Made by a program: the position numbers and the translations under genes | In this document: positions 7,978 to 23,893 of the stretch, one piece after another | How the letters are laid out: the number at the start of each line of letters is the position of its first letter | How positions within the stretch are numbered: the stretch's first letter is position 1 | IMG/VR virus record: IMGVR_UViG_3300009172_001069 | Location: 1 to 26,271 of that record | Length of the DNA: 26,271 nt | Origin: a virus | Reading direction: 5' to 3' (one strand) | Notes under the pieces: model-generated | What the model saw: the letters and a program-made list of their open reading frames with translations, nothing else | Told to the model about the DNA's origin: nothing | The model's database searches: none

Positions 7978-8763
7978 ATGTTTGATGAATATAGTCAATG
8001 GTTCCAATCATTACAAGATACGATTTGTAATACAATAGAAGATTTAGATTGCAATATGACTAGCCACAAAGGCTCGTCTAAAAAAGAGTGGAATCAATTT
8101 CACAGAACAATCTACGGTGATGTGTTTGAAAAAGGCACTGTTAACTTCAGTAAGGTTACTTCGGAGTTTGATCCTAAGTTTGCAAAAGAGATTCCAGGTA
8201 CAGAAGAACACAACAGATATAGTGCCACAGGTATTAGTGTTGTATTACACCCATGGAACCCTCATGCTCCTGCTATGCATTTTAACACTCGTTACTTAAA
8301 GACATCAACTAAAGAATGGTTTGGTGGTGGGATGGATGTTACTCCTTGTATGCCATTTGACAAAGAATCATATCATGCAAGTCTAAAACAAATGTGCGAT
8401 ATGCATAACAGTGATTACTATCCTAAGTTTAGTAAAGCATGTGATGAGTATTTCTACTTGCCACACCGCAACGAAACTAGAGGTGTAGGTGGTATCTTCT
8501 TTGAGTATCATGATCCAAAGGATATGGACTTTAATTTTGTTAAAGATGTAGGACGAACATTCAACTCGTTGATCAGAAGTATCATTACTCCTACAATAAA
8601 TATGGACTATACAAGTAGAGACAGACAAATACTAGAACGGAAACGTGGCCGCTACGTAGAGTTTAACTTACTTTATGATCGTGGAACTAGATTTGGATTT
8701 AAAACAGGTGGAAACATGGAAGCAATACTAATGAGTTTACCGCCTAGTGTAAGGTGGGATTGA
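7978..8763 (+). CDS. hemF: Oxygen-dependent coproporphyrinogen III oxidase
   Basis: HemF oxidatively decarboxylates coproporphyrinogen III to protoporphyrinogen IX with O2, in the cytoplasm. The 261-residue protein keeps the family motifs: FEKGTVNFSKV (50-60), VVLHPWNPHAPAMHFNTRY with the catalytic-site His91 and His101 (88-106), FGGGMDVTPCMP (115-126), PHRNETRGVGGIFFEY (162-177) and GRYVEFNLLYDRGTRFGFKT (224-243), then GGNMEAILMSLPP. It is shorter than bacterial HemF (about 300 aa), mainly through a trimmed N-terminus and the loss of the tail beyond VRW. AAAAGGA precedes the ATG. Its stop overlaps the hemC start (TGATG). The anaerobic HemN/HemZ family is excluded because no radical-SAM motif is present. 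Confidence 0.96.
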   Translation: MFDEYSQWFQSLQDTICNTIEDLDCNMTSHKGSSKKEWNQFHRTIYGDVFEKGTVNFSKVTSEFDPKFAKEIPGTEEHNRYSATGISVVLHPWNPHAPAMHFNTRYLKTSTKEWFGGGMDVTPCMPFDKESYHASLKQMCDMHNSDYYPKFSKACDEYFYLPHRNETRGVGGIFFEYHDPKDMDFNFVKDVGRTFNSLIRSIITPTINMDYTSRDRQILERKRGRYVEFNLLYDRGTRFGFKTGGNMEAILMSLPPSVRWD

Positions 8764-9599
8764 TGAGAATTGGTGTAAGAGGAAGTGACCTGGCATTGGC
8801 TTATGCTAGTGCAGCAACGATGATCTTAGAGCACAAGTCATTTATTGATGTAGAGATAGTTGTAATTAAAACAGATGGTGACATACATCAAGATGTGCCT
8901 ATTCATGAGATAGGCGGCAAAGCTGTATTTTGTAGTGCAATTGAAACTGCATTACTTAACGGAGATATAGATGTTGCTGTGCATAGTCTAAAAGATATGC
9001 CAGCAGATGTTGAAGTGGCTGAACTAGAAATAAGCGCAGTACTAGAACGCAGAGATCCAAGAGATTGTGTTATAGGTAACATGGGCATTAATGCAAAAGT
9101 AGGCACTGGTAGCCCACGAAGAGCCGCTCAATTAAAAATATTAAATCCGTACATACAAGTTTCTCCTATTAGAGGAAACATTGATACTCGCATTGCTAAA
9201 TTAGATGCTGGGGAGTATGATGCGATTATTCTTGCTGTTTCAGGATTAGAAACACTTGGACTTGAACATCGCATCAACAAGATATTTAATATTGATGAAA
9301 TGCTGCCTGCAATCGGGCAAGGAGTGATTGCTTTACAAACTGTAAAAGACTCAGAAGCAAGTCAAATAATAAAAACAAAGAATCACTTAGATACTTACTA
9401 TGCTGCAATGGCAGAACGTAGAATGTTAAAAGTTATTGATGGTGATTGCCATACTGCAATTGGTTGTATTTCTAGTGTTGTAGGCGACTGTATTATGTTA
9501 CAAGCACACAACTACGAAACAGGAAAGCACGGTTCAGTTATTGGAAAGAAACTTGACTATCTTAAATTAGGAGAGTCATTAGGAGTAAAACTTATATGA
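8763..9599 (+). CDS. hemC: Porphobilinogen deaminase (hydroxymethylbilane synthase)
   Basis: HemC joins four porphobilinogen units into hydroxymethylbilane on a dipyrromethane cofactor. The 278-residue protein shows MRIGVRGSDLALA at the start, HSLKDMP (about 74-80), GTGSPRRAAQL, IRGNIDTRIAKLD, LPAIGQGVIALQ and, near residue 228, DGDCHTAIG, whose Cys should carry the cofactor. It lacks part of the usual C-terminus (family about 310 aa). ATG 8763 is preferred over GTG 8754 because AAGGTGGG lies 8 nt upstream and the shorter form matches the family N-terminus. It overlaps hemF by 1 nt and hemE by 4 nt. Confidence 0.96.
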   Translation: MRIGVRGSDLALAYASAATMILEHKSFIDVEIVVIKTDGDIHQDVPIHEIGGKAVFCSAIETALLNGDIDVAVHSLKDMPADVEVAELEISAVLERRDPRDCVIGNMGINAKVGTGSPRRAAQLKILNPYIQVSPIRGNIDTRIAKLDAGEYDAIILAVSGLETLGLEHRINKIFNIDEMLPAIGQGVIALQTVKDSEASQIIKTKNHLDTYYAAMAERRMLKVIDGDCHTAIGCISSVVGDCIMLQAHNYETGKHGSVIGKKLDYLKLGESLGVKLI

Positions 9600-10570
9600 A
9601 TAAACTATTTGAAAATGCCTGCAATAGAGTAGAGCAACCTGTACCTCCAATTTGGATGATGCGGCAGGCCGGACGATATCAAAAAGGTTACATGGAAATG
9701 AAAGAACAGTTTACATTTGAACAAATGTGTAAACTTCCACAAGTTGCAGCTAAGGTTGCAATGCTACCAATTAATCAATTTGATTTTGACATTGCAATAC
9801 TGTTTAGTGACATACTTTTCCCTATTGAAGGGTTAGGTGTTCCTCTAAAGTTTAATCCAGGTCCAAAGTTTGAATGGCTAATTACAGAAGAAAATTATAA
9901 AGACCACATGGATGTTGACGCTGCTATTAAACACATGGTGTTTCAAAGTCGTGCTATTACTGCAACACTAGAAGCACTACCTAAAAATAAAAGTCTTATT
10001 GGGTTTGTAGGAGGTCCTTGGACACTGTTAAACTATGCAACTGGTAAACAAAAAACAAGCACTAAGTTTAAAGTAGAATACTTACACAAAGTTCTTGTTC
10101 CTTTGCTCAATCGTAATATACATTTACAGTTAGCAGCTGGTGCCGAAAAAGTTATGATACTTGATAGCGGAGTAGGTAACATGAGTGAAAAGTTCTTTAA
10201 GGATCACTATAAAGAATTACTACAGCCTATGGTAGGCGATCATGTAGGATATTACACACAGCATTTAAATCCTAAATGTATGCCTAGTTTACTTAAAATG
10301 GGTTGGAAAGGAATTGGTGTTGATAGCACTGTTGATATTTCAAAAACTATGAACAAGTATAAAGACGGATTTGTGCAAGGCAACTTTGACGAGCAACTAT
10401 TACTTCTACCTTATTTAGAATGCAAAGAACAGATTCGTTTGTTTTTAAGTAAAATGGATACAGTTGATCGTACAGGATGGGTATGTGGCCTCGGGCATGG
10501 TATTAATAAACTCACGCCCGAAGCTCATGTTGAACTGTTTGTTGATATGGTTAGATCACACTACAGTTAA
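9596..10570 (+). CDS. hemE: Uroporphyrinogen III decarboxylase
   Basis: HemE removes four carboxyl groups from uroporphyrinogen III to give coproporphyrinogen III, the substrate of HemF. The 324-residue protein has the signature PPIWMMRQAGRY with Arg23 and Arg27 (17-28), LFSDILFPIEGLG with the catalytic Asp72 (69-81), GFVGGPWTLLNYA, VQGNFDE and the C-terminal GLGHGI. It is slightly shorter than the usual 340-355 aa. It starts within the hemC stop (ATGA), and AGGAG lies 10 nt upstream inside hemC, so all three genes are translationally coupled. Its 3' end overlaps the convergent 10556-10741 gene by 15 nt. No uroporphyrinogen III synthase (hemD) is adjacent. Confidence 0.96.
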   Translation: MNKLFENACNRVEQPVPPIWMMRQAGRYQKGYMEMKEQFTFEQMCKLPQVAAKVAMLPINQFDFDIAILFSDILFPIEGLGVPLKFNPGPKFEWLITEENYKDHMDVDAAIKHMVFQSRAITATLEALPKNKSLIGFVGGPWTLLNYATGKQKTSTKFKVEYLHKVLVPLLNRNIHLQLAAGAEKVMILDSGVGNMSEKFFKDHYKELLQPMVGDHVGYYTQHLNPKCMPSLLKMGWKGIGVDSTVDISKTMNKYKDGFVQGNFDEQLLLLPYLECKEQIRLFLSKMDTVDRTGWVCGLGHGINKLTPEAHVELFVDMVRSHYS

Positions 10571-10741
10571 TAACCGTTTGGAAATATCATATAGTCGTTG
10601 CAAGTAATTTTGTGTAAATCGTAGTCTAGTTTCTTTGAATGGTTCTGAGTGAGGTATTAACCCTTTCATGCCGTACACTGGCCACTTTGAAAGTTCACCG
10701 TATGTGCTACGCATATAATTATCATATACAACACTTTTCAT
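10556..10741 (-). CDS. Small hypothetical protein, 61 aa
   Basis: The start is set at ATG 10741 because AGGAG lies 6 nt upstream; the in-frame ATG at 10762 has no ribosome site. The 61-residue product begins MKSVVYDNYMRSTYGELSKW, has a Pro/Gly-rich centre (WPVYGMKGLIPHSEP), and ends with a basic helix (FTQNYLQRLYDISKRLL). It lies 24 nt downstream of prs on the same strand and is probably in the same transcript. The 3' end overlaps hemE tail to tail. No family is recognised. Confidence 0.65.
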   Translation of the reverse strand: MKSVVYDNYMRSTYGELSKWPVYGMKGLIPHSEPFKETRLRFTQNYLQRLYDISKRLLTVV

Positions 10742-10765
10742 CTTATCTCCTGTTCCTAACATTAT

Positions 10766-11740
10766 TTAATTCTGTTTTGTAATATGACTGTCAAACAGGC
10801 TAGAAACAGACTCTTCGTTGGTAACCCGACGAATAGCTTCTCCAAATAGATTAGCAACACTAACCTGTCTTGTCTTTTTATAAGTTTTAGGACAATGATC
10901 TAAAATACTATCTGTGACTACTAGTTCGTCAAGAACACTCTTCTCAACCTTTTGATATGCATCAGCGGAAAGTACACCGTGTGTAATATATGCACGAACT
11001 GTTAGAGCACCTGCATCCATAATGGCTTTTGCTGCACTACATAAAGTTCCTCCACTGTCAATGATGTCATCAACTAGAATGGCGTGTTTACCTTTAACAT
11101 CGCCGATCAAGTTCATGACCTCACTCTTACCTGCTTCGGGTCTACGTTTGTCTACGATAGCAATATCTCCTCCAAACATGTCTGCAAACTTTCTAGCACG
11201 AACAACTCCGCCAGCGTCAGGGCTTACAAACACTGTACCTTGCTGTTGCACTTCAGGATCATCAACTAGGCCAATTGTGCGTCTAATGTCTTTAGCGAAT
11301 ACTAGTCGACTAGTTAAGTCATCAACTGGAATATCAAAGAAGCCTTGTATCTGTCCTGCGTGTAGATCCATTGTAAGGATTCTATCTGCGCCTGCTGTTG
11401 TTAATAAGTTAGCTACTAACTTTGCAGTAATAGGTGTACGACTTGCACTCTTACGATCTTGTCTAGCATATCCAAAGTAAGGAATGACTGCTGTAATACG
11501 ACTAGCACTCGACCTACGTGCTGCATCAATCATAATCAACAGTTCCATTAAATTATCGTTTACAGGAGTACTAGTACTTTGTATAATAAAGATGTCTTCT
11601 CCTCTAATGTTTTCTAAAAACTCTACACTCGATTCGCCGTCGGCAAACGTGCTAACATTTGTAGGAACTAAAGATGCAAAACAATGATCTGCAATCTGTT
11701 GTGCTAATTTCTTGTTGGCGTTTCCTGCGATAATTTTCAT
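10766..11740 (-). CDS. prs: Ribose-phosphate pyrophosphokinase (PRPP synthetase)
   Basis: The enzyme makes PRPP from ribose 5-phosphate and ATP, feeding purine, pyrimidine, NAD, His and Trp synthesis. The 324-residue protein, close to the bacterial norm of about 315, has FADGESSVEF (32-41), IPYFGYARQDRKSASRTPIT (86-105), MDLHAGQIQGFFDIPVDDL (124-142), the flexible loop VDKRRP with Lys198, and the PRPP loop VDDIIDSGGTL (223-233). ATG 11740 is preferred over the in-frame TTG at 11746; AGGAAGGGA lies upstream. It is the last large gene of the leftward cluster that begins at 13395. In a phage it probably supports nucleotide supply for replication. Confidence 0.96.
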   Translation of the reverse strand: MKIIAGNANKKLAQQIADHCFASLVPTNVSTFADGESSVEFLENIRGEDIFIIQSTSTPVNDNLMELLIMIDAARRSSASRITAVIPYFGYARQDRKSASRTPITAKLVANLLTTAGADRILTMDLHAGQIQGFFDIPVDDLTSRLVFAKDIRRTIGLVDDPEVQQQGTVFVSPDAGGVVRARKFADMFGGDIAIVDKRRPEAGKSEVMNLIGDVKGKHAILVDDIIDSGGTLCSAAKAIMDAGALTVRAYITHGVLSADAYQKVEKSVLDELVVTDSILDHCPKTYKKTRQVSVANLFGEAIRRVTNEESVSSLFDSHITKQN

Positions 11741-11767
11741 TTTCAAACGGTTCCCTTCCTCTATAAG

Positions 11768-12196
11768 TTAAATTGTGTCCTTGCCTAGATGCCCTTTTAC
11801 CATTTGTTTTATTTCTAAAACATTGTAATTAGGATCTTCAACAAAGAACGTTTCTTGTTGGTAATCTGTGTCAGCAAATCTTATATAGGGAGTATCTAAG
11901 AAGCCTGTGTGCGTTTCAATACTAGCTCGTATTCGCTGATAATCTGCTTCTTCTAGATGTATTCCAAAGTGCGGAACACATACTTCTCCCATATCAACAT
12001 GGTGCTTAGAACGCTCAGGTCCTTTCGACTGTCTTGGGGTTGAACTGTGTAATGTAAGTTCATTTCCAAAGAAGTCTATGTCTTGCCATTTGCCTTCTTC
12101 TGCCATGTCTAATTTGCAACCTAGTACATCTGTGTACCATTGTTTTGCGATTTCCAAATCGCCAGCCTCGATGGCTAGATGAAAACAGTTACTCAT
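11768..12196 (-). CDS. VOC/glyoxalase-fold protein
   Basis: The 142-residue protein begins MSNCFHLAIEAGDLEIAKQW and has two vicinal-oxygen-chelate (glyoxalase/dioxygenase) repeats. His6 in FHLAIE with YTDVLGCKLD begins repeat one. HFGIHLE and FVEDPNYNVLEIKQM lie in repeat two, giving the usual His and Glu metal ligands. The family covers glyoxalase I, dioxygenases and antibiotic-binding proteins, so the substrate cannot be named. The start at 12196 is chosen over 12244 because AAAGGAAG lies upstream and the shorter form matches the family start without overlapping the methyltransferase gene. It lies between prs and the methyltransferase gene. Confidence 0.85.
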   Translation of the reverse strand: MSNCFHLAIEAGDLEIAKQWYTDVLGCKLDMAEEGKWQDIDFFGNELTLHSSTPRQSKGPERSKHHVDMGEVCVPHFGIHLEEADYQRIRASIETHTGFLDTPYIRFADTDYQQETFFVEDPNYNVLEIKQMVKGHLGKDTI

Positions 12197-12209
12197 GCTT
12201 ACTTCCTTT

Positions 12210-12794
12210 CTAATATCTAAAGTGTGCTCTTGATCTTTTTCCACCTTCTGGATTGAAGTTATGGATTACATTAACATCATTCTTTTGTTGATTTAATAAT
12301 GTTTTAGTTCTAAAATCAAAAATAACAGTACTGTCGTTGTTTGTATGTTTAGTTATTAAGTCTTTGTAAGTGTTTGCAGGATAATGAAACCCACAACTTA
12401 ACCAACTGCAAACAAAATCAAATTTGATGTCTGAGTCTAAATTGATGTTATTAGCATCTACGAAATTGTATTTTATGTTTCGGTTGTCCCAATATGTTTT
12501 GAGCTCACTGACTGGAAGATAGAACTTCATGTCTCCAACAGGTCCCCAACTTGATTTGCGAGGACGATCTATTGTTGTTTGGAAGTCTCCTTCTAGTAAC
12601 CATAGTTCAGTTCCGTATTTCTTTTGAAACTGTTCACTTACATAAGCATAGCCGCAGCCAATGTCTAGTATACGTTTGGGAGGAGTTTTAAGGTATGCAT
12701 CTATTTGTTCGAAGCACTCATACGCTGACAACTGATACCTTTCTTTCTGCCAGGTATGAGGATAAAATTCTTTTACTTGGTTATTGTTTTCCAT
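12210..12794 (-). CDS. SAM-dependent methyltransferase-like protein
   Basis: The 194-residue protein has the class I methyltransferase signature RILDIGCGYAYVSEQF at about 40-55 (motif I, the SAM-binding loop). LWLLEGD follows in the position that contacts the SAM ribose, and KFDFVCSWLSCGFHYP lies at the motif IV position. The substrate is unknown. It starts within the 3' end of the HAD-type phosphatase gene (14-nt overlap). It could modify a nucleotide, sugar or small molecule, perhaps together with its neighbours, but this is not shown. The phage-encoded MetK would supply SAM. Confidence 0.85.
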   Translation of the reverse strand: MENNNQVKEFYPHTWQKERYQLSAYECFEQIDAYLKTPPKRILDIGCGYAYVSEQFQKKYGTELWLLEGDFQTTIDRPRKSSWGPVGDMKFYLPVSELKTYWDNRNIKYNFVDANNINLDSDIKFDFVCSWLSCGFHYPANTYKDLITKHTNNDSTVIFDFRTKTLLNQQKNDVNVIHNFNPEGGKRSRAHFRY

Positions 12795-13395
12795 TGTCGC
12801 TATCTGTCAGAATGTTATAGATCTGTTTCCAGTTCTTAACAGTAGTTATGCCTTCTTGTTTATAATTCATGTTGTGACCATGTTCTATTAACAATGGACG
12901 AAGGCCAACTTTTAATCCTGCTTCAGCATTTGCTGGTTTGTCTTCAACCCAGTAATGATTTGTATCTTGATAAACTGCTAGTGCTTCGTCTTTGTCGGCA
13001 CCCGTTCCAAGATATACAAATTTAGTAAATGCTGTTTTACCAAATAGTTTTTTGAGATTCATTGTACGCAACTTACATGCGTTTTTATTTTTAGAAAGAG
13101 ATGTAATAGCATGAAACTCGAATCCATGTTCTTCATGCAATCGTTTAACATAGTACTGTGCATCACGCAATGCTGGGAGGAAACCCATAGTAGCACTTTC
13201 GTTAAACTGCCTAATTAATTTATGTCCTTGGTTTTTAGAAATGCCATATCGCTGACCGATATCGTATACATATTGATATCCCTTGACAGTTTCAAATCCG
13301 TGTTCTTGCATCCAAATATTAAATGCCCACTCCCAATCTAAAACTACACCATCGCAGTCTGTTAGGATAATCTTTTCGTTCTTATTCAATTGCAT
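12781..13395 (-). CDS. HAD-family phosphatase, possibly 5'-nucleotidase-like
   Basis: The 204-residue protein opens with the HAD nucleophile motif LTDCDGVVLDWEWAF (residues about 11-25, DxDGVxxD), as in deoxyribonucleotidase-like HAD enzymes. AITSLSKN (about 97) fits motif II and WVEDKPANAEAG (about 149-160) fits motif IV. The cap domain is helical. The likely role is hydrolysis of a phosphate from a nucleotide or sugar phosphate; the substrate is inferred only from family resemblance. It is the first gene of the leftward operon and has a strong sigma70 promoter upstream, so expression is probably early. Confidence 0.8.
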   Translation of the reverse strand: MQLNKNEKIILTDCDGVVLDWEWAFNIWMQEHGFETVKGYQYVYDIGQRYGISKNQGHKLIRQFNESATMGFLPALRDAQYYVKRLHEEHGFEFHAITSLSKNKNACKLRTMNLKKLFGKTAFTKFVYLGTGADKDEALAVYQDTNHYWVEDKPANAEAGLKVGLRPLLIEHGHNMNYKQEGITTVKNWKQIYNILTDSDNGKQ

Positions 13396-13423
13396 CTTGC
13401 TCCTATTATCTAATTATGTATAT

Positions 13424-13452
13424 ACTATAACATAACGGAGCAATGGTGTCAA
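13424..13452 (-). promoter_or_regulatory. sigma70 promoter TTGACA-17-TATAGT
   Basis: On the minus strand TTGACA (13452-13447) and TATAGT (13429-13424) have an exact 17-bp spacer. It faces the HAD-methyltransferase-VOC-prs cluster, and AGGAG precedes ATG 13395. Confidence 0.85.
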
Positions 13453-13453
13453 C

Positions 13454-14257
13454 CTAAATCTGTGGAGTTTCGGAATTTTTTGCGAGGTTAGCAGAATGTT
13501 TAATGTATTCAACCATACTATGATCTGAAAAGCTATCAACTCTACCTACTTTGATACCTCTCCAAATACCACGCCACTTGTCTTTAAACTTTTGCCATCT
13601 TGTAGGAGTTCTTAGATTACCCCAAGTATTAAAGTAACGTTCTGTGCCGTGATGTGTGTAGCCCATAATTGCCATAGGTACAGTAGTAACAATGTCGTTG
13701 TTGTTTACAAATCTGTTATGAACAATATCTAAACTCTTAGTGTAACCTCTCCAACCCACACGCGGACTTCCGTAGGTGTAAAGCTCAATAGGATCGTTTA
13801 GCTCAATGTTATGCTTTGCTCTACTTGCCATAATAGTTGCCATTGCAGCACCTAAGCTATGTCCACAGAACCAAAGTGTCTTAGTTACGTTTACAGTACG
13901 ATTGATGTCTTCTTCGATCATAGGCCAAAGATCATCTACTTCGTCTTTGAATCCTTGATGTACTCTTGATATTGTTTCTGCTATTACTGGTATAGCTTTT
14001 AAGTCAGCTGCTATATCATTAAATGCAGTAGGCTCAGTGCCACGGCATGCAATAATTAAATCATTTTTGTTCATGAAGCGATATGCTTGTGCGCCGGCCT
14101 TTTCATAAAACTCAACAGTAGTAAATCCTAGTTTAGCTGCTTTCTTTTTTACGCTAGGCAAGTCTTCGTATGCAATTGCTGATAGCTCTGCAAATAGTAA
14201 ACTTCGTTGTTCAAATGTTGTGTCTGTTAATTTAGTCTTTATTTTATTTGTAAACAT
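13454..14257 (-). CDS. Class 3 lipase (alpha/beta hydrolase)
   Basis: The 267-residue protein has the class 3 (fungal-type) lipase layout. LIIACRGTEP (67-76) is the oxyanion strand, CGHSLGAAMATIMAS (131-145) carries nucleophile Ser134, LYTYGSPRVGW (159-169) follows, NNNDIVTTVP (185-194) carries Asp188, and YTHHGTERYF (200-209) supplies the His. The family hydrolyses triacylglycerols or phospholipids. There is no signal peptide, so it would act from the cytoplasmic side or from the virion. An exact late promoter and AGGAG precede the start. Membrane damage at exit or lipid scavenging is inferred. A lipase of this class is unusual in a phage genome. Confidence 0.9.
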   Translation of the reverse strand: MFTNKIKTKLTDTTFEQRSLLFAELSAIAYEDLPSVKKKAAKLGFTTVEFYEKAGAQAYRFMNKNDLIIACRGTEPTAFNDIAADLKAIPVIAETISRVHQGFKDEVDDLWPMIEEDINRTVNVTKTLWFCGHSLGAAMATIMASRAKHNIELNDPIELYTYGSPRVGWRGYTKSLDIVHNRFVNNNDIVTTVPMAIMGYTHHGTERYFNTWGNLRTPTRWQKFKDKWRGIWRGIKVGRVDSFSDHSMVEYIKHSANLAKNSETPQI

Positions 14258-14276
14258 AGTTCGCTCCTACTGTTTT

Positions 14277-14284
14277 TATTTATA
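14277..14284 (-). promoter_or_regulatory. Exact T4 late promoter TATAAATA
   Basis: Exact TATAAATA on the minus strand, 20-27 nt upstream of the lipase ATG and overlapping the stop codon of the 14280-14630 gene. Confidence 0.75.
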
Positions 14285-14630
14285 AAGTAAGCCCTTCATC
14301 CATATAAGGGGTTAGATTTTTCCCAGGCAATACAATACAAGTTTGGTCTTCGTTTGGTCTAATTGTAATTGTAAATGATCTTGTTTTGGGATTGGCCCAG
14401 ACTTCTAACCTTCCCACATACGCACCGCCTGGTGTTTGATATAAAGTATTGCCACTAAAAAAAGGAAGTTCTCCATGTTTTCGTATTAGAGCTTGTATCT
14501 GTTCGTTGCTTCCGCACTCGACCATCAACGGTAATCTTATTGGTGGTTGCTCTTGTTCTTCACCATATGCTGTTCCTGCATAAAATACGACCATCCATGT
14601 TAATACAATAAGTGCCCAAATATGTTTCAT
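14280..14630 (-). CDS. Secreted small protein with signal peptide
   Basis: The 116-residue protein has a typical Sec signal: MKH, a hydrophobic core (IWALIVLTWMVVFYAGTAYG), and a likely cleavage after AYG near residue 23. The mature part is about 93 residues, with two cysteines (VECGSN and DQTCIV) that could form a periplasmic disulphide, and several beta-prone stretches (RSFTITIRPNEDQ). No enzyme motif is present. It lies between the SNase and lipase genes. A periplasmic role in exit, superinfection control or protection of the envelope is possible. I recall similar exported small proteins in marine phages, unverified. Confidence 0.75.
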   Translation of the reverse strand: MKHIWALIVLTWMVVFYAGTAYGEEQEQPPIRLPLMVECGSNEQIQALIRKHGELPFFSGNTLYQTPGGAYVGRLEVWANPKTRSFTITIRPNEDQTCIVLPGKNLTPYMDEGLTL

Positions 14631-14641
14631 GTTCTTTTCCT

Positions 14642-15073
14642 TTATGGAAGTTTAACTACCCCTTCAGCAATCAAACGTTCTCTGTTTTTCATATGTGCTG
14701 CTTTGGTATCATCTTTAGATCCACCAAAGTAAGGAACACATTGTCCTTCAGCAATCATAACTTCTGTTGCTAGACGCCCATCGTCTAAAATAAAGTCTCC
14801 TAAGATACGTCCGAACTTGCCTTTCATATCTTCACCATTCCTACTAATCTGTGTTTTAAGAATAGAAGTCTTTCCTAGTAATTCTTTTAGTCTTTTCTTT
14901 GCAGCAAGGCCAAACGCCTTTTCTACTTTATCTCTTGTGCGTGATTCAGGAGTATCTATCCCCATAACTCTAACACGTTCGTCGGCTAGTATTACATTAA
15001 ATCCTAAGTCAATGTTCACATCTACTGTGTCCCCATCAACCACTCTCGTTACTTCGCATCGGTACTCGTACAT
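14642..15073 (-). CDS. Staphylococcal-nuclease-like (SNase) endonuclease
   Basis: The 143-residue protein is a compact thermonuclease homologue that would cut DNA or RNA with Ca2+. It shows VVDGDTVDVNIDLG (11-24), RVRVMGIDTPES with Arg35, Asp40 and Glu43 (33-44, matching the S. aureus catalytic numbering), and GKFGRILGDF with an Arg at about 89 for the second catalytic Arg. The C-terminal AEGQCVPYFGG also fits the family. There is no signal peptide. It lies between a late promoter and the secreted-protein gene. Roles in host DNA degradation or nucleotide salvage are plausible. Confidence 0.93.
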   Translation of the reverse strand: MYEYRCEVTRVVDGDTVDVNIDLGFNVILADERVRVMGIDTPESRTRDKVEKAFGLAAKKRLKELLGKTSILKTQISRNGEDMKGKFGRILGDFILDDGRLATEVMIAEGQCVPYFGGSKDDTKAAHMKNRERLIAEGVVKLP

Positions 15074-15100
15074 AGATTCGCTCCCTGTATTATTATAGTA

Positions 15101-15110
15101 GTATTTATTA
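15101..15110 (-). promoter_or_regulatory. T4-type late promoter motif (TAATAAATAC)
   Basis: AATAAATAC on the minus strand, 28-37 nt upstream of the SNase ATG. GGGAG follows as ribosome site. Confidence 0.6.
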
Positions 15111-15126
15111 AAAAGTGTGGAAGTTA

Positions 15127-15588
15127 TTAACTCCAGGGTCTACTTGCTGCTGGTGCGCCTGTGTTTTCGTCATCGTCTGCGTTGTATGCATCTGCTTCAT
15201 ATGGGTTAGGCAGTCTGTTCTTATTGAATGTTTTTAATGCCCTATAGTAAACAGCATCAGTATCTGCGGCTGCAAGTCCTTCACGTTTAGCTTGTGCAAT
15301 AGCACCCTTTTGTTCTTGACGTGCTTCTTTGTTGCCAGTCTTTAATGGAACACATATAATTACATCACCTGCGGCAAGTCCTGCGGCAGTTAATGTCTTT
15401 GCGCCATCATTAGCTTGATTGATAGCAGAGTCTTTTTCAGCAACAATTTCACCGTACATTCCTGTTGTAATAGGAGCACCTTCTATTGCTTGTACTAGAG
15501 CTGTAAGTCCGTTCATTGTAGTTGAACCGTAAGTTACAGTCACATTAAACTGTACGCCTGTTAACCCTTTACATTTAATAGTTGCCAT
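15127..15588 (-). CDS. Small virion-like protein
   Basis: The 153-residue protein begins MATIKCKGLTGVQFNVTVTYG. The first half is beta-rich with small residues and includes ALVQAIEGAPITTGMYG. A basic, Lys/Glu-rich helical stretch follows (KTGNKEARQEQKGAIAQAKR, about 83-102). The C-terminal tail is acidic and Asn/Asp-rich (YEADAYNADDDENTG), ending SRPWS. The mix of a small-residue N-terminus and a short ending with PW resembles small structural proteins of marine T4-like phages that I recall, unverified. A late-type promoter about 50 nt upstream and an AGAGG ribosome site support abundant late expression. Confidence 0.75.
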   Translation of the reverse strand: MATIKCKGLTGVQFNVTVTYGSTTMNGLTALVQAIEGAPITTGMYGEIVAEKDSAINQANDGAKTLTAAGLAAGDVIICVPLKTGNKEARQEQKGAIAQAKREGLAAADTDAVYYRALKTFNKNRLPNPYEADAYNADDDENTGAPAASRPWS

Positions 15589-15634
15589 TAGTTACCTCTA
15601 ATTATAGTGATTCGCATATATCGCTTGTTCACAA

Positions 15635-15650
15635 GTATTTAGTTAAATAC
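15635..15650. promoter_or_regulatory. Palindromic back-to-back late-type promoters
   Basis: GTATTTA-GT-TAAATAC is a perfect inverted repeat with a 2-nt centre. Read leftward it gives CTAAATAC for the 15127-15588 gene; read rightward it gives TTAAATAC for the hemA locus. Both are late-motif variants. Confidence 0.55.
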
Positions 15651-15654
15651 AAAC

Positions 15655-15834
15655 ATGTTAAAAATGTTTCGAAGTATTATTTCCATGTGGAAAGACTACG
15701 ATGAACTATTGACAGAACTTCGAAAAGACGGGTGGCATTTTTATACCCACCACACCTTAGGGGGAATAGGTTGTTATTATGATAGACAAAAAGCCAATAA
15801 ACAAATTGCTGAGAGATCTAAAAAGCAACGGTAA
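15655..15834 (+). CDS. Candidate 59-residue ORF overlapping the hemA start
   Basis: This 59-codon ORF begins [19 protein letters not shown], continues [20 protein letters not shown], and then overlaps the first 56 nt of hemA in another frame. The first 41 codons precede hemA and read like a compact amphipathic protein with a Trp/His/Tyr-rich patch (GWHFYTHH). The part inside hemA is constrained by hemA coding and may be incidental. There is no Shine-Dalgarno site, since the late-type motif ends 4 nt before the ATG. It could be a real small protein, a leader peptide controlling hemA translation, or chance. The hemA ribosome site (AGGGGG, AATAGG) lies inside it. Confidence 0.4.
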
Positions 15835-16984
15835 TTACCGTGTTTTTAATGATATCTTACGTGAGCGAGGAGAGTTTCCAAAAGCAATATGGTATGGTCC
15901 ATACAACATTAAGAACATTGTAAATTGGTGTTCTAATGATTATTTAGGTATGGGTCAACATAAAGTTGTCATAGACGCTATGCATACTGCCCTAGACCAA
16001 ACAGGATCAGGCTCGGGAGGTACACGGAACATTGGCGGTACCAGTCACTATCATGTGGCATTAGAAAACGAACTTAGTACACTACATAACAAGGCAAAAT
16101 CATTATTGTTTACGTCTGCTTATGTAGCTAATGAGTGGACTCTTATTTCATTAGCAAAAATATTCCCCAACATTGTATTTTTAAGTGATAGCAAGAACCA
16201 TGCTTCTCTTATCCAAGGCATACTTCACAGTAAAGCACAGAAACAAGTATGGACACACAACAACATGGATCAACTAGATGAACTATGTGCAAGTGCTGTA
16301 CTAGCAGGACAAACACCTTGTATTGTTTTTGAAAGTGTTTATTCAATGGACGGAGATGTTAGTCCTATTGAACAGATATGTAACATTGCTGACAAGTATA
16401 ATGCCATGACGTACATTGATGAAGTTCATGCTGTTGGCCTGTATGGCGAACACGGAGGCGGCTGGACAGAAAAACTAGGGCTTCAATCCCGTGTTGATAT
16501 AATCAACGGAACCCTAGGTAAAGCATTTGGTGTGCAAGGTGGCTACATTGCTGCTGACGCAGACGTAATAGATGCTATTCGTAGTGTCGCCTCCGGCTTT
16601 ATTTTTACAACTTCAATGAGTCCTGTAAGTTGTGCTGGTGCTATGGCTGCAATTAAATACCTAAAAGATCATAACGAAATGCGTGAGCTGCATCAAGAAC
16701 GTGCTGCTAAACTTAAAGAGCGGTTAGCTAAGAATGGTATTCCGGTTATGGAAGAGTCAACTACACACATTGTTCCTGTACTAGTTGGCAATGCTAAGAA
16801 GTGTAAGAGCATGAGTGATATGTTGTTAGACGAACATAATATATATGTTCAAGCAATTAACTTTCCAACAGTAGCAGAAGGAACAGAACGATTACGTTTT
16901 GCTCCTACTCCGTATCATGATGATGGAATGATTGAAGATTTAGTTATTGCTCTGAAGGCTGTATTTGCTCGTCACCAGGATTAA
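15779..16984 (+). CDS. hemA: 5-aminolevulinate synthase (C4/Shemin pathway)
   Basis: ALAS condenses glycine and succinyl-CoA to 5-aminolevulinate, the first committed and usually rate-limiting step of haem synthesis in Alphaproteobacteria. The 401-residue, PLP-dependent protein matches the family along its full length: Arg21 (substrate), [11 protein letters not shown] (51-61), [13 protein letters not shown] (76-88), [12 protein letters not shown] with His141, [19 protein letters not shown] with Asp214 and His217, and NGTLGKAFG with Lys248 (PLP Schiff base). The GTRN segment and overall match separate it from related 2-amino-3-ketobutyrate and 8-amino-7-oxononanoate enzymes. AATAGG sits 8 nt upstream. 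It converges on the cupin gene with a 41-nt overlap, about 5 kb from hemFCE. Confidence 0.97.
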
Positions 16985-17327
16985 GTCTAAATTGATCTTC
17001 TTCATAGTCAGCTGACCCTGTTTCAAATATAGTCGAGTTATGTTCTAGTGACTCTAGCTGATGCGGCGACATTTCAGCAATATCAACAGTATTGCCTTCT
17101 TTAACTATTTGTTCTCTTGGCACTCCTGTTTTAATATCTATAAAAGTAATCTTAAACGATCCTGAATTTACAAACCAACTCTTACGTTTGGTCTTGTGCA
17201 GTAGCATTGCTGTTTTCTTTTTAGGATATTCAAAGACTAGTAGCTTTCCACAATAACTTTCATTTGAAGCAAAGTTTATTTCTAAGCCCCAGTCTTTAAC
17301 TGCATGTCCTTGAGGGATTAACTTCAT
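16944..17327 (-). CDS. Cupin-fold protein (mannose-6-phosphate isomerase type II-like)
   Basis: The 127-residue protein is a single small cupin domain. [20 protein letters not shown] (10-29) opens the barrel, [20 protein letters not shown] carries one His where cupins usually have a metal-binding HxH, and [13 protein letters not shown] (50-62) matches the W-x-V-x-x-G segment. [10 protein letters not shown] (86-95) supplies the second cupin motif. Similar domains serve sugar-nucleotide pathways and occur in marine phages. With fewer His residues, metal binding is doubtful. Its ATG overlaps the clpP stop by 4 nt and its 3' end overlaps hemA by 41 nt. Confidence 0.75.
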
Positions 17328-17914
17328 GGTCGATGATCAACAATCTTATCTATAAGTCCGTATTCAAGAGCTTCTTTAGCTGACATAAACTTATCACGCT
17401 CCATGTCGGCTTCTAGTTGTTCAAACGTTTTACCTTTGCTGTTATGCTTTTCGTAGATCCCTGTAAGTTCTTTTTTCATTTTAAGAATTTCTTCTACTTG
17501 GATCTGCATGTCAGTTGCTTGGCCTCTTGCTCCACCACTTGGTTGATGAATCATATGTCTTGCGTTAGGTAACATATATCGTTTGCCTGGTGCACCGGAC
17601 TGTGCTAACAAGCTACCCATTGAACATGCCTGTCCCATTACATAGGTAGACACTTCAGGTTTAATAAATTGCATTGTATCGTAGATGCTCATGCCAGCAG
17701 TTACTACACCGCCTGGACTATTAATAAACAACGAAATTGGTTTGTCTGAATCTTCTGATTCTAAAAATAGTAATTGGCAAACAACTATGTTAGCCATAAA
17801 ATCCTCTACAGGGCCGTTCAGCATAACAACTCTATCTTTAAGTAATCTGCTGTAGATATCAAAAGCTCGTTCGCCCTTGCTCGTTGATTCTACTACCATT
17901 GGTACTAATGCCAT
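17324..17914 (-). CDS. clpP: ClpP protease subunit
   Basis: ClpP forms the barrel-shaped serine protease that degrades proteins fed by ClpA/ClpX-type ATPases. The 196-residue protein is full length for Clp[20 protein letters not shown] (65-83) forms the oxyanion region, [10 protein letters not shown] (94-103) carries Ser98, HMIHQPSGG (120-128) carries His123, and [19 protein letters not shown] (171-189) carries Asp174, so the triad is complete. No ATPase partner is in the window, so it would borrow the host unfoldase or mix with host ClpP. AAAGGAA precedes the ATG. It is coupled to the cupin gene. Confidence 0.96.
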
Positions 17915-19011: not shown

Positions 19012-20115
19012 ATGAAGAAAGTTCCGTACAATCGCCAGACGGAGATCAACAAGTATCTGGCAAAATTCAAAATTTCATTCGAAATGAAAGATGACGCAAT
19101 TGATTTGCGTACTATGTCTGACAACTACGACCGTGGCATTATTCCACTTAATGATATTGCAGAAGCAATTGATGTTGTACTTGGACCTGACAAGAAACCT
19201 AATGTCCAAGACCCATACAATCCTAAAGAAGGTATTGTAAAGTTTGGTTGGATTGATTGGGACGACATGTATTTGTGGCCAAGGTTCCAACGAGATGTTG
19301 CACCTAACCATATGTATAAAATTGAACAAGACTACGAACACACTGCGGTACTGTTGCCAACTGCTATATTAGTAGACGGAATGTACATGCTGTGGGACGG
19401 TCATCACACATCACAAGAAATGTTTAGACAAAAATATACTACATACCCTATGTGGTATATTGATACAAATATGATTACTGCCAACACAGTACAAGACGCA
19501 GGCTTCACAGACAAAGTAGAGTATGCTGTTTGGTTAGCAGGACAAAACATGATACGTATTAACAGTCGTAACAAACGTAAACTACATGCCTACGATGAGT
19601 TTATGATATTGCTAGAAACAAAAGATAGTGCAACTGTACAGATGAATAACATTTTAACTGCTACAGGGTTTGGTCCTAAACGTAATGCTAACACACCAAA
19701 TGCATTTAGTCAGATTAAAAGTGGACAAACTATATTTGAAATGTCAGATGATTACGGAGTTAAAGGCAAATACTTTAAACGTGCATTGCAATTCCATAAT
19801 GCACACTGGAAGAAGGCAGCAGCAGAGTTAGAGATATGGAGGCCTATGGCATTATTGTATAAGATGGCTGAGGTTGAAGGCTTTGCTATCGATGCAGCTT
19901 TTGATGATGAACTAGGAAAACTGTTTATTAAAATATGGGGTGATCCAACATCAGTACAACTAGGTCTAAAGGACAACTACGAGACTGCACTACACGCCAA
20001 AGGGTTTACAAACCCAAGAGACCACGACCAATGGCGTGTATATGATGCTATTGTAAACTTGTACAATACCTTTATAGGACGTATCCAACTTCCAACAGCA
20101 CAGTGTAGGTGGTAA
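19012..20115 (+). CDS. ParB/sulfiredoxin-fold-like phage protein
   Basis: The 367-residue protein has a ParB-like (ParB/Srx fold) segment. WPRFQRDVAPNHMYKIEQDY (89-108) resembles the entry region. LPTAILVDGMYMLWDGHHTS (115-134) carries the D-G-H-H motif typical of ParB N-terminal domains, where nucleotide is bound. The rest is helical with many charged residues and no second known domain. The role may be DNA binding, nucleotide-triggered switching or nuclease activity; phage members of this fold are poorly characterised. AAGGAG precedes the ATG, and a sigma70 promoter lies about 100 nt upstream. The next gene starts 1 nt after its stop. Confidence 0.75.
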   Translation: MKKVPYNRQTEINKYLAKFKISFEMKDDAIDLRTMSDNYDRGIIPLNDIAEAIDVVLGPDKKPNVQDPYNPKEGIVKFGWIDWDDMYLWPRFQRDVAPNHMYKIEQDYEHTAVLLPTAILVDGMYMLWDGHHTSQEMFRQKYTTYPMWYIDTNMITANTVQDAGFTDKVEYAVWLAGQNMIRINSRNKRKLHAYDEFMILLETKDSATVQMNNILTATGFGPKRNANTPNAFSQIKSGQTIFEMSDDYGVKGKYFKRALQFHNAHWKKAAAELEIWRPMALLYKMAEVEGFAIDAAFDDELGKLFIKIWGDPTSVQLGLKDNYETALHAKGFTNPRDHDQWRVYDAIVNLYNTFIGRIQLPTAQCRW

Positions 20116-20116
20116 C

Positions 20117-20500
20117 ATGAAGTTCTTATACTTAATGAAAGACCCTATGGGTAGTGGTGATTGTAAGATTGGTATTACTGGAGTGGATCGTGCAATGGAT
20201 AGGCTAGGAGTTTATCAGAACAGTTATTCTGCTCGTAGCCATTACGCTACGTTCAATCACTTGTGGTATGGTAAGTCAAACCCAATTAGTAAACTAGAGA
20301 GTGTACTCAAAGACACGTTTGGCTATGCTATTATGCTAGAGGGTAGAGGCTACTCAGAATGGATAGCTGAGCCTGAAGAAACTATACTAAAGAAACTAAA
20401 AGAAACTATTGAAGACTACCATTTTCATGTATACGAGATCGGCAAAGAAATCAATGTACACAACGTAGATGAGGTAATTAATCGGTTGACAGACCTATAA
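20117..20500 (+). CDS. GIY-YIG-like (T5orf172-type) protein
   Basis: The 127-residue protein resembles the GIY-YIG/T5orf172 superfamily. FLYLMKDPMGSGDCKIGITG (3-22) carries the Y-L and K-I-G-I-T strands, RAMDRLGVYQNSYSARSH follows with the usual Arg, and ISKLESVLKDTFGY (about 57-70) holds the conserved Glu. GRGYSEWI at about 76-83 closes the domain. The family includes nicking endonucleases and other DNA-processing enzymes. Whether this one cuts DNA is uncertain. It follows the ParB-like gene by 1 nt, so the two may cooperate. The promoter of the DNA ligase gene lies at its 3' end. Confidence 0.7.
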   Translation: MKFLYLMKDPMGSGDCKIGITGVDRAMDRLGVYQNSYSARSHYATFNHLWYGKSNPISKLESVLKDTFGYAIMLEGRGYSEWIAEPEETILKKLKETIEDYHFHVYEIGKEINVHNVDEVINRLTDL

Positions 20501-20514
20501 ATTTCTGTTATAAT
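20486..20514 (+). promoter_or_regulatory. Consensus sigma70 promoter TTGACA-17-TATAAT with embedded TATAAATT
   Basis: TTGACA (20486-20491) and TATAAT (20509-20514) have an exact 17-bp spacer. The spacer contains TATAAATT, one base from the late motif. It faces the DNA ligase gene at 20550, with AAGGAG as ribosome site. Confidence 0.85.
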
Positions 20515-20549
20515 ATATATATTAATTAGGCACACAAGGAGCAACATAC

Positions 20550-21863
20550 ATGAGAACACAACCGCAAGATATTATCGCACAGTTAGAAGCTGACAATAGC
20601 AAACTAGCCAAACAAGCAATCCTCGAAGCAGCAATGCAAGAAGGACTAGATGAGTTCTTTGAAGGTGTTCGAATGGCTCTTGATAAAACATATACTTTTG
20701 GTGTGAAGCAAGTGCCTGAGCGTTCAGATGTACTTACCGGACAAGGCCTAAGTTGGACAAACTTTGCTGAACTTGCTGAAGCATTGTACAAACGCAAACT
20801 AACAGGACATGCGGCACGTGACGCAATTGAACTTGCAATGAGTGTTGCTACTACTGATCAATGGAATGGTTTTTATAGACGTATTCTTATTAAAGACTTG
20901 CGTTGTGGAATGAGCGAAAAGACTGTTAACAAAGTAGCTAAAGAGTTTCCACAGTATAAAGTACCTGTGTTTGAATGTATGCTCGCCCATGACGGTGCTA
21001 ACCACGAAAAGAAGTTAGTTGGCCGTAAACTTATTGAGCCTAAGCTAGACGGTGTACGTTGTATTACAATTGTTGATCACGAAAACAAAACTGTAACACA
21101 GTACTCACGTAACGGCAAAGTGTTAGAAAACTTTACACACATCACTGATGCACTAAGCAACTTTATTGATGAGTTTGGACGTTCGTTTGTGCTTGATGGA
21201 GAAGTTATGAGTGCTGACTTTCAGCAGTTAATGACACAACTAAATCGAAAGTCAGATGTTGAAGCTGGTGATGCTCGACTTGCACTGTTTGATATTATTC
21301 CGTTGGTAGAGTTTAAACAAGGACAAAGCATACAAGGACAAAGACGCAGAAGCAATATGCTTAAAACATTTGCTAAGATATTTGAACAATGTTATTGTGA
21401 CATTGTAACACAAACAGAAGTAGAACTGGGCACTGAAGAAGGTGATGCACAGTTTAAAGCATATAACTTAGATGCTATTGAAAAAGGTTACGAAGGGATT
21501 ATGATTAAAGACATTGATACTGTTTATCAATGTAAGAGATCACATGCATGGCTAAAGCAAAAGCCGTTTATTGAGGTTACATTGGAGGTTGTAGATGTTG
21601 AAGAAGGAACAGGAAGAAATGAAGGACGACTCGGTGCTATCGTTTGTGAAGGAATGGACGATGGAAGAATGGTTAGGGTCAATTGCGGTAGCGGCTTTAG
21701 TGACAGTAACCGCGATAACTTTTGGACTCTTCGTAGCGATGTTATTGGACAACTAGTAGAAGTACGTGCAGATGCAGTAACACAGAATCAAGACGGTACA
21801 TATAGTTTGCGCTTCCCACGTTTTAAAACGTTCCGAGGCTTTGAACCAGGAGAGAAGGTATGA
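20550..21863 (+). CDS. ATP-dependent DNA ligase, T4 gp30-like
   Basis: The enzyme seals nicks during phage replication and recombination using ATP. The 437-residue protein has an N-terminal helical DNA-binding region (1-155) with GFYRRILIKDLRCGMSEKTV (107-126), as in T4 gp30-type ligases. The adenylation domain has IEPKLDGVRC with Lys165 as the AMP-accepting residue, VLDGEVM as motif III, YEGIMIKD as motif IV and WLKQKP as motif V. A C-terminal OB-fold region (IEVTLEVVDVEEGTGRNEGR) follows. A consensus promoter precedes it, so early expression is likely. The stop overlaps the next start (ATGA). Confidence 0.96.
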   Translation: MRTQPQDIIAQLEADNSKLAKQAILEAAMQEGLDEFFEGVRMALDKTYTFGVKQVPERSDVLTGQGLSWTNFAELAEALYKRKLTGHAARDAIELAMSVATTDQWNGFYRRILIKDLRCGMSEKTVNKVAKEFPQYKVPVFECMLAHDGANHEKKLVGRKLIEPKLDGVRCITIVDHENKTVTQYSRNGKVLENFTHITDALSNFIDEFGRSFVLDGEVMSADFQQLMTQLNRKSDVEAGDARLALFDIIPLVEFKQGQSIQGQRRRSNMLKTFAKIFEQCYCDIVTQTEVELGTEEGDAQFKAYNLDAIEKGYEGIMIKDIDTVYQCKRSHAWLKQKPFIEVTLEVVDVEEGTGRNEGRLGAIVCEGMDDGRMVRVNCGSGFSDSNRDNFWTLRSDVIGQLVEVRADAVTQNQDGTYSLRFPRFKTFRGFEPGEKV

Positions 21864-22798: not shown

Positions 22799-23893
22799 AT
22801 GAACTATATTTTTACAAGCGAATCAGTAAGTGACGGACATCCAGATAAGGTTGCAGACCAAATCTCAGATGCTCTTGTCGATGCTGGCTTAAAGAACGGC
22901 GATGAAACAACCCGTGTAGCAATTGAAACACTAGTAACTACTAACATGGTTACACTTGCAGGTGAAGTTAAGAACTTTAATGTAACTAAAGCAGCCGTAG
23001 AACATATTGTACGCAACAAAGTTAAACAGATTGGCTACGAACAAGAAGGGTTTCATTGGAATAAACTAAAGATCTATAATGAAATTCATAGCCAAAGTGC
23101 AGACATTGCACTAGGTACAGACGACTTTGGAGCAGGCGATCAAGGTATTATGTTTGGCTATGCTTGTAATCATACAGCTAGTATGATGCCAGCACCTATT
23201 CATTATGCTCACGAGATATTAAAAGAACTCAAAGGCCTCCGTGAACTAGATGATATCCTAGGTCCAGATGCTAAGAGTCAAGTAAGCGTAGAGTACAATG
23301 GTGCTAGGCGTGAAGGTCTTATTAAACGTATTGATCAAATTGTTATCAGCACACAACATGCTGAAGGCGAAATAGTAATTGCAAGAGAACTTGCAAAGCA
23401 GGCTGCAAGATCAGCCCTAGGTAATTTAATTGATGAAGATACTGTATGGCACATTAATCCTACTGGGAGTTTTGTTATTGGTGGACCTGACGGTGATGCA
23501 GGAGTTACAGGACGAAAGATTATCGTGGACACCTATGGTGGGTTCGCTCCTCATGGTGGTGGCGCTTTTTCTGGAAAAGACCCTACGAAAGTAGACCGTA
23601 GTGCTGCCTACATGGCACGTTGGTTAGCTAAGAACGTAGTAGCAGATGAAATGGCAGACTGGTGTAACATTCAGTTATCGTATGCTATTGGCGTAAAGCA
23701 ACCTACTAGTATCCTTATTGACAGCAACGGACACAATCGTAGTATTGAACATTTTATACGTGAAGAGATTGACTTGAGTCCTAAAGGAATCATTGACAGA
23801 TTTGATTTATTCAACTACACTAACTATAGTGAAAACTGCGTGTACGGACACTTTGGAGACAAAGACGTACCTTGGGAAAAGATAGGATGGTAA
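22799..23893 (+). CDS. metK: S-adenosylmethionine synthetase
   Basis: MetK makes SAM from methionine and ATP, for methyltransferases and for SAM-dependent biosynthesis. The 364-residue protein, near the bacterial norm of about 385, has FTSESVSDGHPDKVADQISD (5-24, the methionine/ATP-binding opening), DFGAGDQGIMFGYA (109-122) and GGGAFSGKDPTKVDRSAAY (253-271, the phosphate-binding loop), all well conserved. The C-terminus is slightly short. It lies in the small-gene run after DNA ligase and before the endonuclease VII gene. SAM could feed the phage methyltransferase and host steps such as tetrapyrrole or DNA methylation. The distribution of metK among phages was not checked. Confidence 0.97.
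   Translation: MNYIFTSESVSDGHPDKVADQISDALVDAGLKNGDETTRVAIETLVTTNMVTLAGEVKNFNVTKAAVEHIVRNKVKQIGYEQEGFHWNKLKIYNEIHSQSADIALGTDDFGAGDQGIMFGYACNHTASMMPAPIHYAHEILKELKGLRELDDILGPDAKSQVSVEYNGARREGLIKRIDQIVISTQHAEGEIVIARELAKQAARSALGNLIDEDTVWHINPTGSFVIGGPDGDAGVTGRKIIVDTYGGFAPHGGGAFSGKDPTKVDRSAAYMARWLAKNVVADEMADWCNIQLSYAIGVKQPTSILIDSNGHNRSIEHFIREEIDLSPKGIIDRFDLFNYTNYSENCVYGHFGDKDVPWEKIGW

Follow-up and report, generated by a model that had tools for sequence, protein, structure and literature searches.

Haem-pathway genes hemF, hemC, hemE and hemA on a phage genome that also carries predicted haem oxygenase and bilin reductase genes

Four tetrapyrrole genes and their phage genome

The window analyzed in this study is IMG/VR virus record IMGVR_UViG_3300009172_001069, a stretch of 26,271 bases that contains four genes of the haem pathway: hemF, hemC and hemE in an overlapping cluster, and hemA (Table 1). 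An earlier note, made from the letters alone, had described four intact tetrapyrrole genes with diagnostic motifs. This description holds: all four open reading frames are uninterrupted, and family and PDB matches confirm the assignments, the nearest solved relatives being coproporphyrinogen oxidase, porphobilinogen deaminase, uroporphyrinogen decarboxylase (UroD) and 5-aminolevulinate synthase (ALAS), respectively. PF01218 spans most of HemF; HemE aligns with solved UroD over the MRQAGRY and LGHGI stretches; the best PDB matches of HemA are two ALAS, and the protein is nearer to ALAS than to KBL, AONS or SPT. The C-terminal HemC family, PF03900, reached only 4.5e-5 in the window HemC, under its cut-off. 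The overlaps of 1 nt (hemF/hemC) and 4 nt (hemC/hemE) given in the note are as claimed if hemC starts at its ATG, the hemF stop codon ending at 8763 and the ATG beginning there; a GTG at 8754 is an alternative start, giving 281 amino acids and an overlap of 10 nt with hemF. An AGGA-type ribosome site is seen by eye upstream of hemF. The distance from hemE to hemA was measured at 5,208 nt, matching the 5.2 kb noted earlier.

The entire window lies within a longer contig, G001 (57,527 bp), with which it is collinear and 99.93% identical over all 26,271 bp. Outside the window, G001 contains overlapping genes for a haem oxygenase (hemO) and a bilin reductase (pcyX). The HemO aligns to haem oxygenase across the N-terminal histidine and the GDLSGGQ stretch. 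The reductase is of PcyX type, matching PcyX far better than the best PcyA, and shares 54% identity with the reductase of Pelagibacter phage Mosig. Thus the window's phage encodes predicted enzymes for building haem and also for its opening to bilin. Family and PDB matches that include active-site stretches support HemF, HemC, HemE, HemA, HemO and PcyX alike.

Table 1. Positions of the haem-pathway genes and of other features on the window and related contigs
Feature	Sequence	Position	Strand	Product	Support or remark
hemF, oxygen-dependent coproporphyrinogen III oxidase	window	7978..8763	+	261 aa	PF01218 1.9e-83; PDB coproporphyrinogen oxidase 8.5e-55
hemC, hydroxymethylbilane synthase (porphobilinogen deaminase)	window	8763..9599	+	278 aa from ATG	PF01379 1.9e-64
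hemE, uroporphyrinogen decarboxylase	window	9596..10570	+	324 aa	PF01208 8.2e-59; PDB UroD 2.2e-31
hemA (alaS), 5-aminolevulinate synthase	window	15779..16984	+	401 aa	PF00155 5.5e-66; PDB ALAS 7x98 2.1e-130, 2bwn 1.3e-127; KBL 7.5e-60
hemO, haem oxygenase	G001	50858-51403			outside window
pcyX, bilin reductase	G001	51396-52091			outside window; overlaps hemO; PcyX 5owg 1.3e-82, best PcyA 8.6e-12
Rhodobacteraceae-type hemE	L031	4731-5762			HemE 74% to Marivivens
Membrane protein gene after hemE	G003 (L012-L013)	~19600-20560	opposite	319 aa	phosphate-permease-like by eye
Ribose-phosphate pyrophosphokinase	window	10766-11746			host-like gene
Class 3 lipase	window	13454-14257			host-like gene
ClpP	window	17324-17914			host-like gene
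S-adenosylmethionine synthetase	window	22799-23893			host-like gene
AlgH-like protein	window	24518-25081			host-like gene
IMPDH/GMP reductase-family gene	G001 (L009)	8756-9916
CsgF, CsgG and FecR genes	G001 (L009)	13618-16955			curli-type set

The hem genes belong to the phage and are not an assembly chimera, because the set recurs, whole or in part, on three further IMG/VR contigs and because relatives have hem genes on contigs bearing T4-type core genes; the phage origin supposed in the earlier note therefore stands. Besides G001, contig G002 (39.5 kb) is 99.9% identical to the window over 10.7 kb and ends after hemE, and G003 carries all four hem genes, its identity to the window being 97-99% in long blocks and falling to 89-94% in two short ones. 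The three contigs carry different dataset numbers. Profile searches for hemB, hemD, hemH, hemO, the bilin reductase and gp23 covered 50 records. The capsid gene gp23 was present in four of these, one being G005, a 16.7-kb contig with hemE-hemF-hemC; most contigs lack this marker, and the partial contigs G001, G003 and G039 gave no match to it. In another relative, L031, hemF-hemC are flanked immediately by a phage DNA helicase gene on one side and, on the other, by genes for a late sigma factor and for endonuclease subunits resembling SbcD and SbcC; we take the four flanking genes to be T4 uvsW, 55, 47 and 46. The hem genes are thus metabolic genes within a phage genome, which is one part of the definition of an auxiliary metabolic gene.

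Other features of the window are compatible with a marine T4-like phage. The ligase that the earlier note called gp30-like is a phage ATP-dependent DNA ligase (phrog_114, 1.5e-97), yet a weak clue, being only 30-35% identical to the 20 relatives listed of 1,099; a DUF6267 protein has weak matches (22-28%) in marine T4-like phages, namely cyanomyophages, HTVC008M and Melnitz phages. G001, at about 38% G+C, also has a PAAR/tail-lysozyme-like protein, a tail spike, exonucleases, a ribonucleotide reductase and eight tRNAs. The T4-like late promoters that the note had invoked did not survive counting: TATAAATA was found twice against 2.8 expected and was rejected as proof of phage origin. Sigma-70-like sites (32 against 33.9 expected) and terminator-like sites (9 against 6.0) likewise gave nothing usable. 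Matches in an annotated phage collection to HemF (2), HemA (19), HemE (12) and HemC (10) were all below 60% identity and were set aside; by names, lengths and feature labels, they were judged to be bacterial carry-over or other ALAS-superfamily enzymes.

Relatives, gene orders and signs of function

Viral relatives were sought with exact patterns of 7-8 residues, and the resulting counts are lower bounds. HemF relatives, 60-100% identical, were found on 39 viral contigs. The most frequent order was E-F-C with a phage-type HemE (17 contigs), followed by F-C-E-B (12); the order F-C-E was seen in 3, F-C with no E in view in 3, and a bacterial-type HemE gene 1.6 kb before F-C in 2, with one contig ending in E-F and one carrying F alone. 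Across these contigs, 64 of the 84 junctions between adjacent hem genes overlap by 1-11 nt, with starts chosen by script. An ALAS gene accompanies at least 10 of the 39. The HemC scan returned 193 viral relatives and the ALAS patterns 476 viral stretches, the best 80 of each being considered. Within at most 5 kb of these best 80 hemC genes, the neighborhoods with other hem genes were F-C-E-B (12), E-C (7), F-C-E (3) and E-F-C (3), with single cases of hemC beside a bacterial-type hemE, beside hemA and beside hemF. The series of hemC alone, E-C, E-F-C, F-C-E and F-C-E-B, with or without hemA in view, suggests how a multi-step phage pathway could grow by stages. Loci with hemC alone include L344-L363.

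HemB, HemD and HemH, which the earlier note had not seen in the window, likewise gave no match anywhere in the 57.5-kb G001 in profile searches. In the window's lineage hemB was looked for after hemE and not found; the window has a 68-aa open reading frame there. A phage hemB (ALAD) was found in 12 of the 50 records, every one of the F-C-E-B type, directly 3' of hemE with a 4-nt overlap (L217-L220, L409-L415; for example IMGVR_UViG_3300000101_000007). In the one phage HemB copy inspected, the cysteine-rich stretch DICLCSTTLDGHCC and the lysine of MVKPGM are both present. A sister of the window's phage, G039 (107 kb), carries hemA, hemB, hemC, hemE, hemF, hemO and pcyX on one contig, with hemB right after hemE; it is collinear with G001, 73 of whose open reading frames match, nearly all in the same order. 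HemD (PF02602) was found in none of the 50 records and ferrochelatase (PF00762) in none, although the same searches were positive in 12 and 8 of 14 control genomes, respectively. The place after hemE is a variable spot: it holds hemB in the sister lineage and a membrane protein gene in G003, where the window has about 160 nt.

The hem genes across the family are under purifying selection, as judged from chosen pairs. The ratio of nonsynonymous to synonymous substitution rates was 0.05-0.24 in 27 of 28 hand-chosen pairs, the remaining pair being saturated; it ranged over 0.06-0.19 for HemF, 0.10-0.24 for HemC (pairs that exclude the window copy), 0.07-0.14 for HemE and 0.05-0.11 for HemA. The lysine of HemA that binds pyridoxal phosphate, K248, is kept in all 55 distinct viral ALAS. 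The cysteine of HemC for the dipyrromethane cofactor is present in 31 of 33 distinct viral rows, the other two being cut at contig ends; C229 is invariant in the 12 aligned viral HemC. The window HemC has the SPRR and SLKD stretches.

The phage enzymes tend to be short. Uncut phage HemC are 245-281 amino acids long and bacterial ones mostly 290-318, and phage-type HemE are 323-327 against mostly 337-363, the bacterial lists including some viral rows. For the window copy, the idea that a short C-terminus marks HemC as a decayed enzyme was rejected: the best AlphaFold model, with a predicted local distance difference test score of 89, superposes on whole solved enzymes, with a template modelling score of 0.89 to both 1ah5 and 1pda; five models were made, of which one was poor. 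Some HemC relatives, at about 247 amino acids, are shorter still.

Origins of the phage genes

The earlier note had called for trees against host and phage homologs. Duplicates, cut or short rows and rows above 450 amino acids were excluded from the trees made; the bacterial comparison consisted of samples of 240, 76 and 80 genomes, in which the true donors may be absent. In quick trees, viral HemF and viral HemC are separate from the sampled bacteria: a branch with support 99 sets off the 26 viral rows in the HemF tree, and another with support 99 the 29 viral rows in the HemC tree. For HemE, compared with 12 hand-picked bacterial rows, 24 of 26 viral rows form one clade (99/93); its sister (96/90) is the HemE encoded by L321, an alphaproteobacterial genome of 1.6 Mb, and together with HemE from further small genomes this clade falls in a wider one distinct from the usual bacterial type. 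The alphaproteobacterial connection proposed in the note is supported. The two remaining rows, L031 and L033, group with Rhodobacteraceae, which points to a possible host in that family and a recent exchange of the gene. Viral ALAS (29 viral, 39 genome and 6 small-genome rows) form their own clade with a few contigs from metagenome-assembled genomes (MAGs), not beside the small-genome group. The ALAS of MAG contigs L137, L138, L139, L140 and L142, binned as Neomarinimicrobiota, Flavobacteriales, Rhodobacteraceae and Neisseriaceae, are 65-69% identical to the window's and fall inside the viral clade; these contigs are probably misbinned phage. HemC is nearer to ordinary alphaproteobacterial HemC (43-46% identity) than to the long HemC of the small-genome group (27-33%), which the HemC tree excluded. 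From these differing affinities of HemE, ALAS and HemC, the set seems to have been put together from several sources.

In bacteria, the hem genes were examined around hemF in eight genomes picked from the hits. Six of them (a 2.4-Mb MAG with the label Neomarinimicrobiota and five alphaproteobacterial genomes, these 1.2-1.6 Mb in size) have hemA, hemC, hemE and hemF within about 10 kb, and five of these have hemB as well; the other two, G264 and G063, have hemF without other hem genes. The adjacency of hemE and hemF resembles that in the E-F-C phages, but the overall order differs from the F-C-E of the window. The small-genome clusters thus share the pathway, that adjacency and a HemE clade with the phages; they differ in having hemA on the opposite strand, a long hemC (492-504 amino acids) and, in most, hemB between hemC and hemE, and their HemE is only 37-48% identical. 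HEM4 gave no match in the one long small-genome HemC scanned. One of the six genomes has a UPF0093 gene, presumably hemJ, after hemF.

Destination of the pathway and known systems

We consider it probable that these genes raise tetrapyrrole flux to haem, and here probably on to bilin, in a marine phage that is probably of T4 type; the lift of flux proposed in the earlier note is likely. Phage ALAS would make aminolevulinate and so open the C4 haem pathway; the host would supply HemB, HemD, protoporphyrinogen oxidase and ferrochelatase; HemC, HemE and HemF, from a cluster probably translated in step, would take porphobilinogen to protoporphyrinogen IX. Phage haem oxygenase would then probably open haem to biliverdin, which PcyX would reduce to bilin. 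B12 and sirohaem branch off before the HemE and HemF steps and were rejected as products on pathway knowledge; the target would thus be protohaem. That upstream haem steps occur on the same genomes as hemO and pcyX, in clusters that overlap and are conserved, argues for selection on tetrapyrrole flux itself, which would benefit the phage. A bolder version can be put forward only tentatively: that T4-like marine phages have assembled, gene by gene and from different donors, a near-complete pathway from glycine and succinyl-CoA to bilin (hemA, hemB, hemC, hemE, hemF, hemO and pcyX), with HemD, protoporphyrinogen oxidase and ferrochelatase coming from the host, and that non-cyanobacterial cells, once infected, may in this way form phycoerythrobilin or a related pigment. 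The near-complete early pathway of the note fits the hemB-bearing sister better than the window's phage, whose partial contigs show no hemB, although several early steps do stand on one phage genome.

Several observations weigh against a flux to haem and bilin as the general purpose. In 52 of the best 80 viral HemC loci, hemC is the only hem gene in view over at most 5 kb (many loci are cut by contig ends), and hemC in many phages may serve another purpose. hemO and the bilin reductase each occur in 11 of the 50 records, but in only 6 each (7 together) of the 38 hemF records searched, which are fragments, and four of the nine hemF contigs of at least 45 kb show neither; bilin formation is thus no constant partner, and elsewhere haem itself may be the aim. 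Reported haem-feedback sites also give no phage-specific signal at His342. The feedback residues His342 and Cys400 of Rhodobacter ALAS are named in a study of phage ALAS (Wegner et al. 2024, PMC11480375). In a pairwise alignment, the window HemA has a lysine in place of His342 and lacks the C-terminal cysteine; of 75 bacterial ALAS, however, only 2 have His in this column and 73 lack it, and release from feedback through its loss is not supported as a phage-specific trait. Among the last 25 residues, a cysteine is present in 7 of the 55 viral ALAS and in 36 of the 75 bacterial ones.

The earlier note had named cytochromes or bacteriochlorophyll as the destination; a flux to haem stands, but with hemO and PcyX on the same genome these two are neither the only nor the likeliest ends. 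That the hem genes maintain host respiration, giving haem for cytochromes while host genes are shut off, with hemO and pcyX serving another purpose or the control of excess haem, is a real possibility that falls somewhat short of an even chance. ALAS is the usual control point, the same role is proposed for phage ALAS in PMC11480375, and the long hemF contigs without hemO and reductase fit it, as does the pathway knowledge that HemF needs oxygen and the hosts must be aerobic; the haem-consuming hemO and pcyX of the window's phage and its sister speak against it. Precursor supply for bacteriochlorophyll in a phototrophic host is unlikely: chlorophyll and haem share the steps to protoporphyrin IX, and two relatives carry a Rhodobacteraceae-type hemE, yet the bacterial HemE nearest the window's is that of small-genome alphaproteobacteria, and no bacteriochlorophyll-specific gene turned up among the family hits, in which no dedicated search for one was made.

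Iron supply is discussed for phage hemO in PMC11480375, and haem oxygenase might free iron for phage or host enzymes, with the hem genes merely recycling it. This is quite unlikely here, since haem synthesis would consume the same iron that opening frees and the phage would gain no iron by driving it; as haem that is built and then opened yields no net iron, a bilin or a kept haem pool is the likelier aim. A chimeric assembly, or host sequence binned as viral, could be imagined from the bacterial type of the enzymes and from the bacterial clusters of hemA, hemC, hemE and hemF, where hemE adjoins hemF as in the E-F-C phages. It is highly improbable: the three other contigs agree with the window, 39 viral contigs have a related hemF, contigs with hem genes also bear gp23 or a late sigma factor gene and SbcD/SbcC-like genes, the trees place viral HemF in a single clade separate from the bacteria sampled and do the same for viral HemC, and the bacterial gene order is unlike the window's F-C-E.

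The flux to haem and bilin favored here extends systems already in print, and the early pathway is not wholly new, as the earlier note had supposed. Phage ALAS (valaS), alone or with hemO-pcyA/X, is published with activity by complementation, on marine contigs tied to pelagimyophages (PMC11480375); that study describes as enigmatic what hemO and bilin reductase do for phages whose hosts are not cyanobacteria. The same first enzyme, again in the company of hemO and bilin reductase, is found in the window's phage, and the lineage of this phage adds two to four further steps in one overlapping cluster. The main text of PMC11480375 has no mention of hemC, hemF or hemB and one of "uroporphyrinogen", in a legend; hemE is inseparable from "heme" in a text search. 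Pelagimyophage PMP-MAVG-4 is described as having coproporphyrinogen oxidase, porphobilinogen deaminase and GMP reductase, the last among its unique genes (PMC7029224); the window's phage has the first two and an IMPDH/GMP reductase-family gene. By this description, the only basis of the comparison, PMP-MAVG-4 differs in that its one sentence names no hemE, hemB or hemA and in its G+C content of 32%. The near-complete set is therefore a richer form of a known auxiliary gene type. Among the papers listed in searches of open-licence literature, none described hemC-hemE-hemF clustered in a phage or the combination of hemA-B-C-E-F and hemO-pcyX, a scope outside which subscription papers, preprints and supplements fall.

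Other phages show partial likenesses. Mosig (EXVC030M) has its bilin reductase gene beside an annotated haem oxygenase gene and was not among the annotated-phage matches to HemF, HemA, HemE or HemC. The features compared with pelagimyophages were PcyX and the curli genes, the window's phage having CsgF/CsgG as pelagimyophages do. HTVC023P-type podophages have ferrochelatase genes (PMC9599517), which is another step of the same pathway in another phage type. Haem biosynthesis genes appear as a viral class in PMC13184970 and viral alaS in PMC13390420; the haem passages of PMC9301287 concern ahbD.

Three long viral contigs, G047 (353 kb), G051 (280 kb) and G050 (138 kb), carry alaS with hemO and a bilin reductase gene; G047 and G051 contain gp23 and are possibly jumbo T4-like phages. 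Near the curli-type set of G001 are proteins with curlin-like repeats, seen by eye, and its further host-like genes include ClpS and an Hsp20-like gene, the latter by eye.

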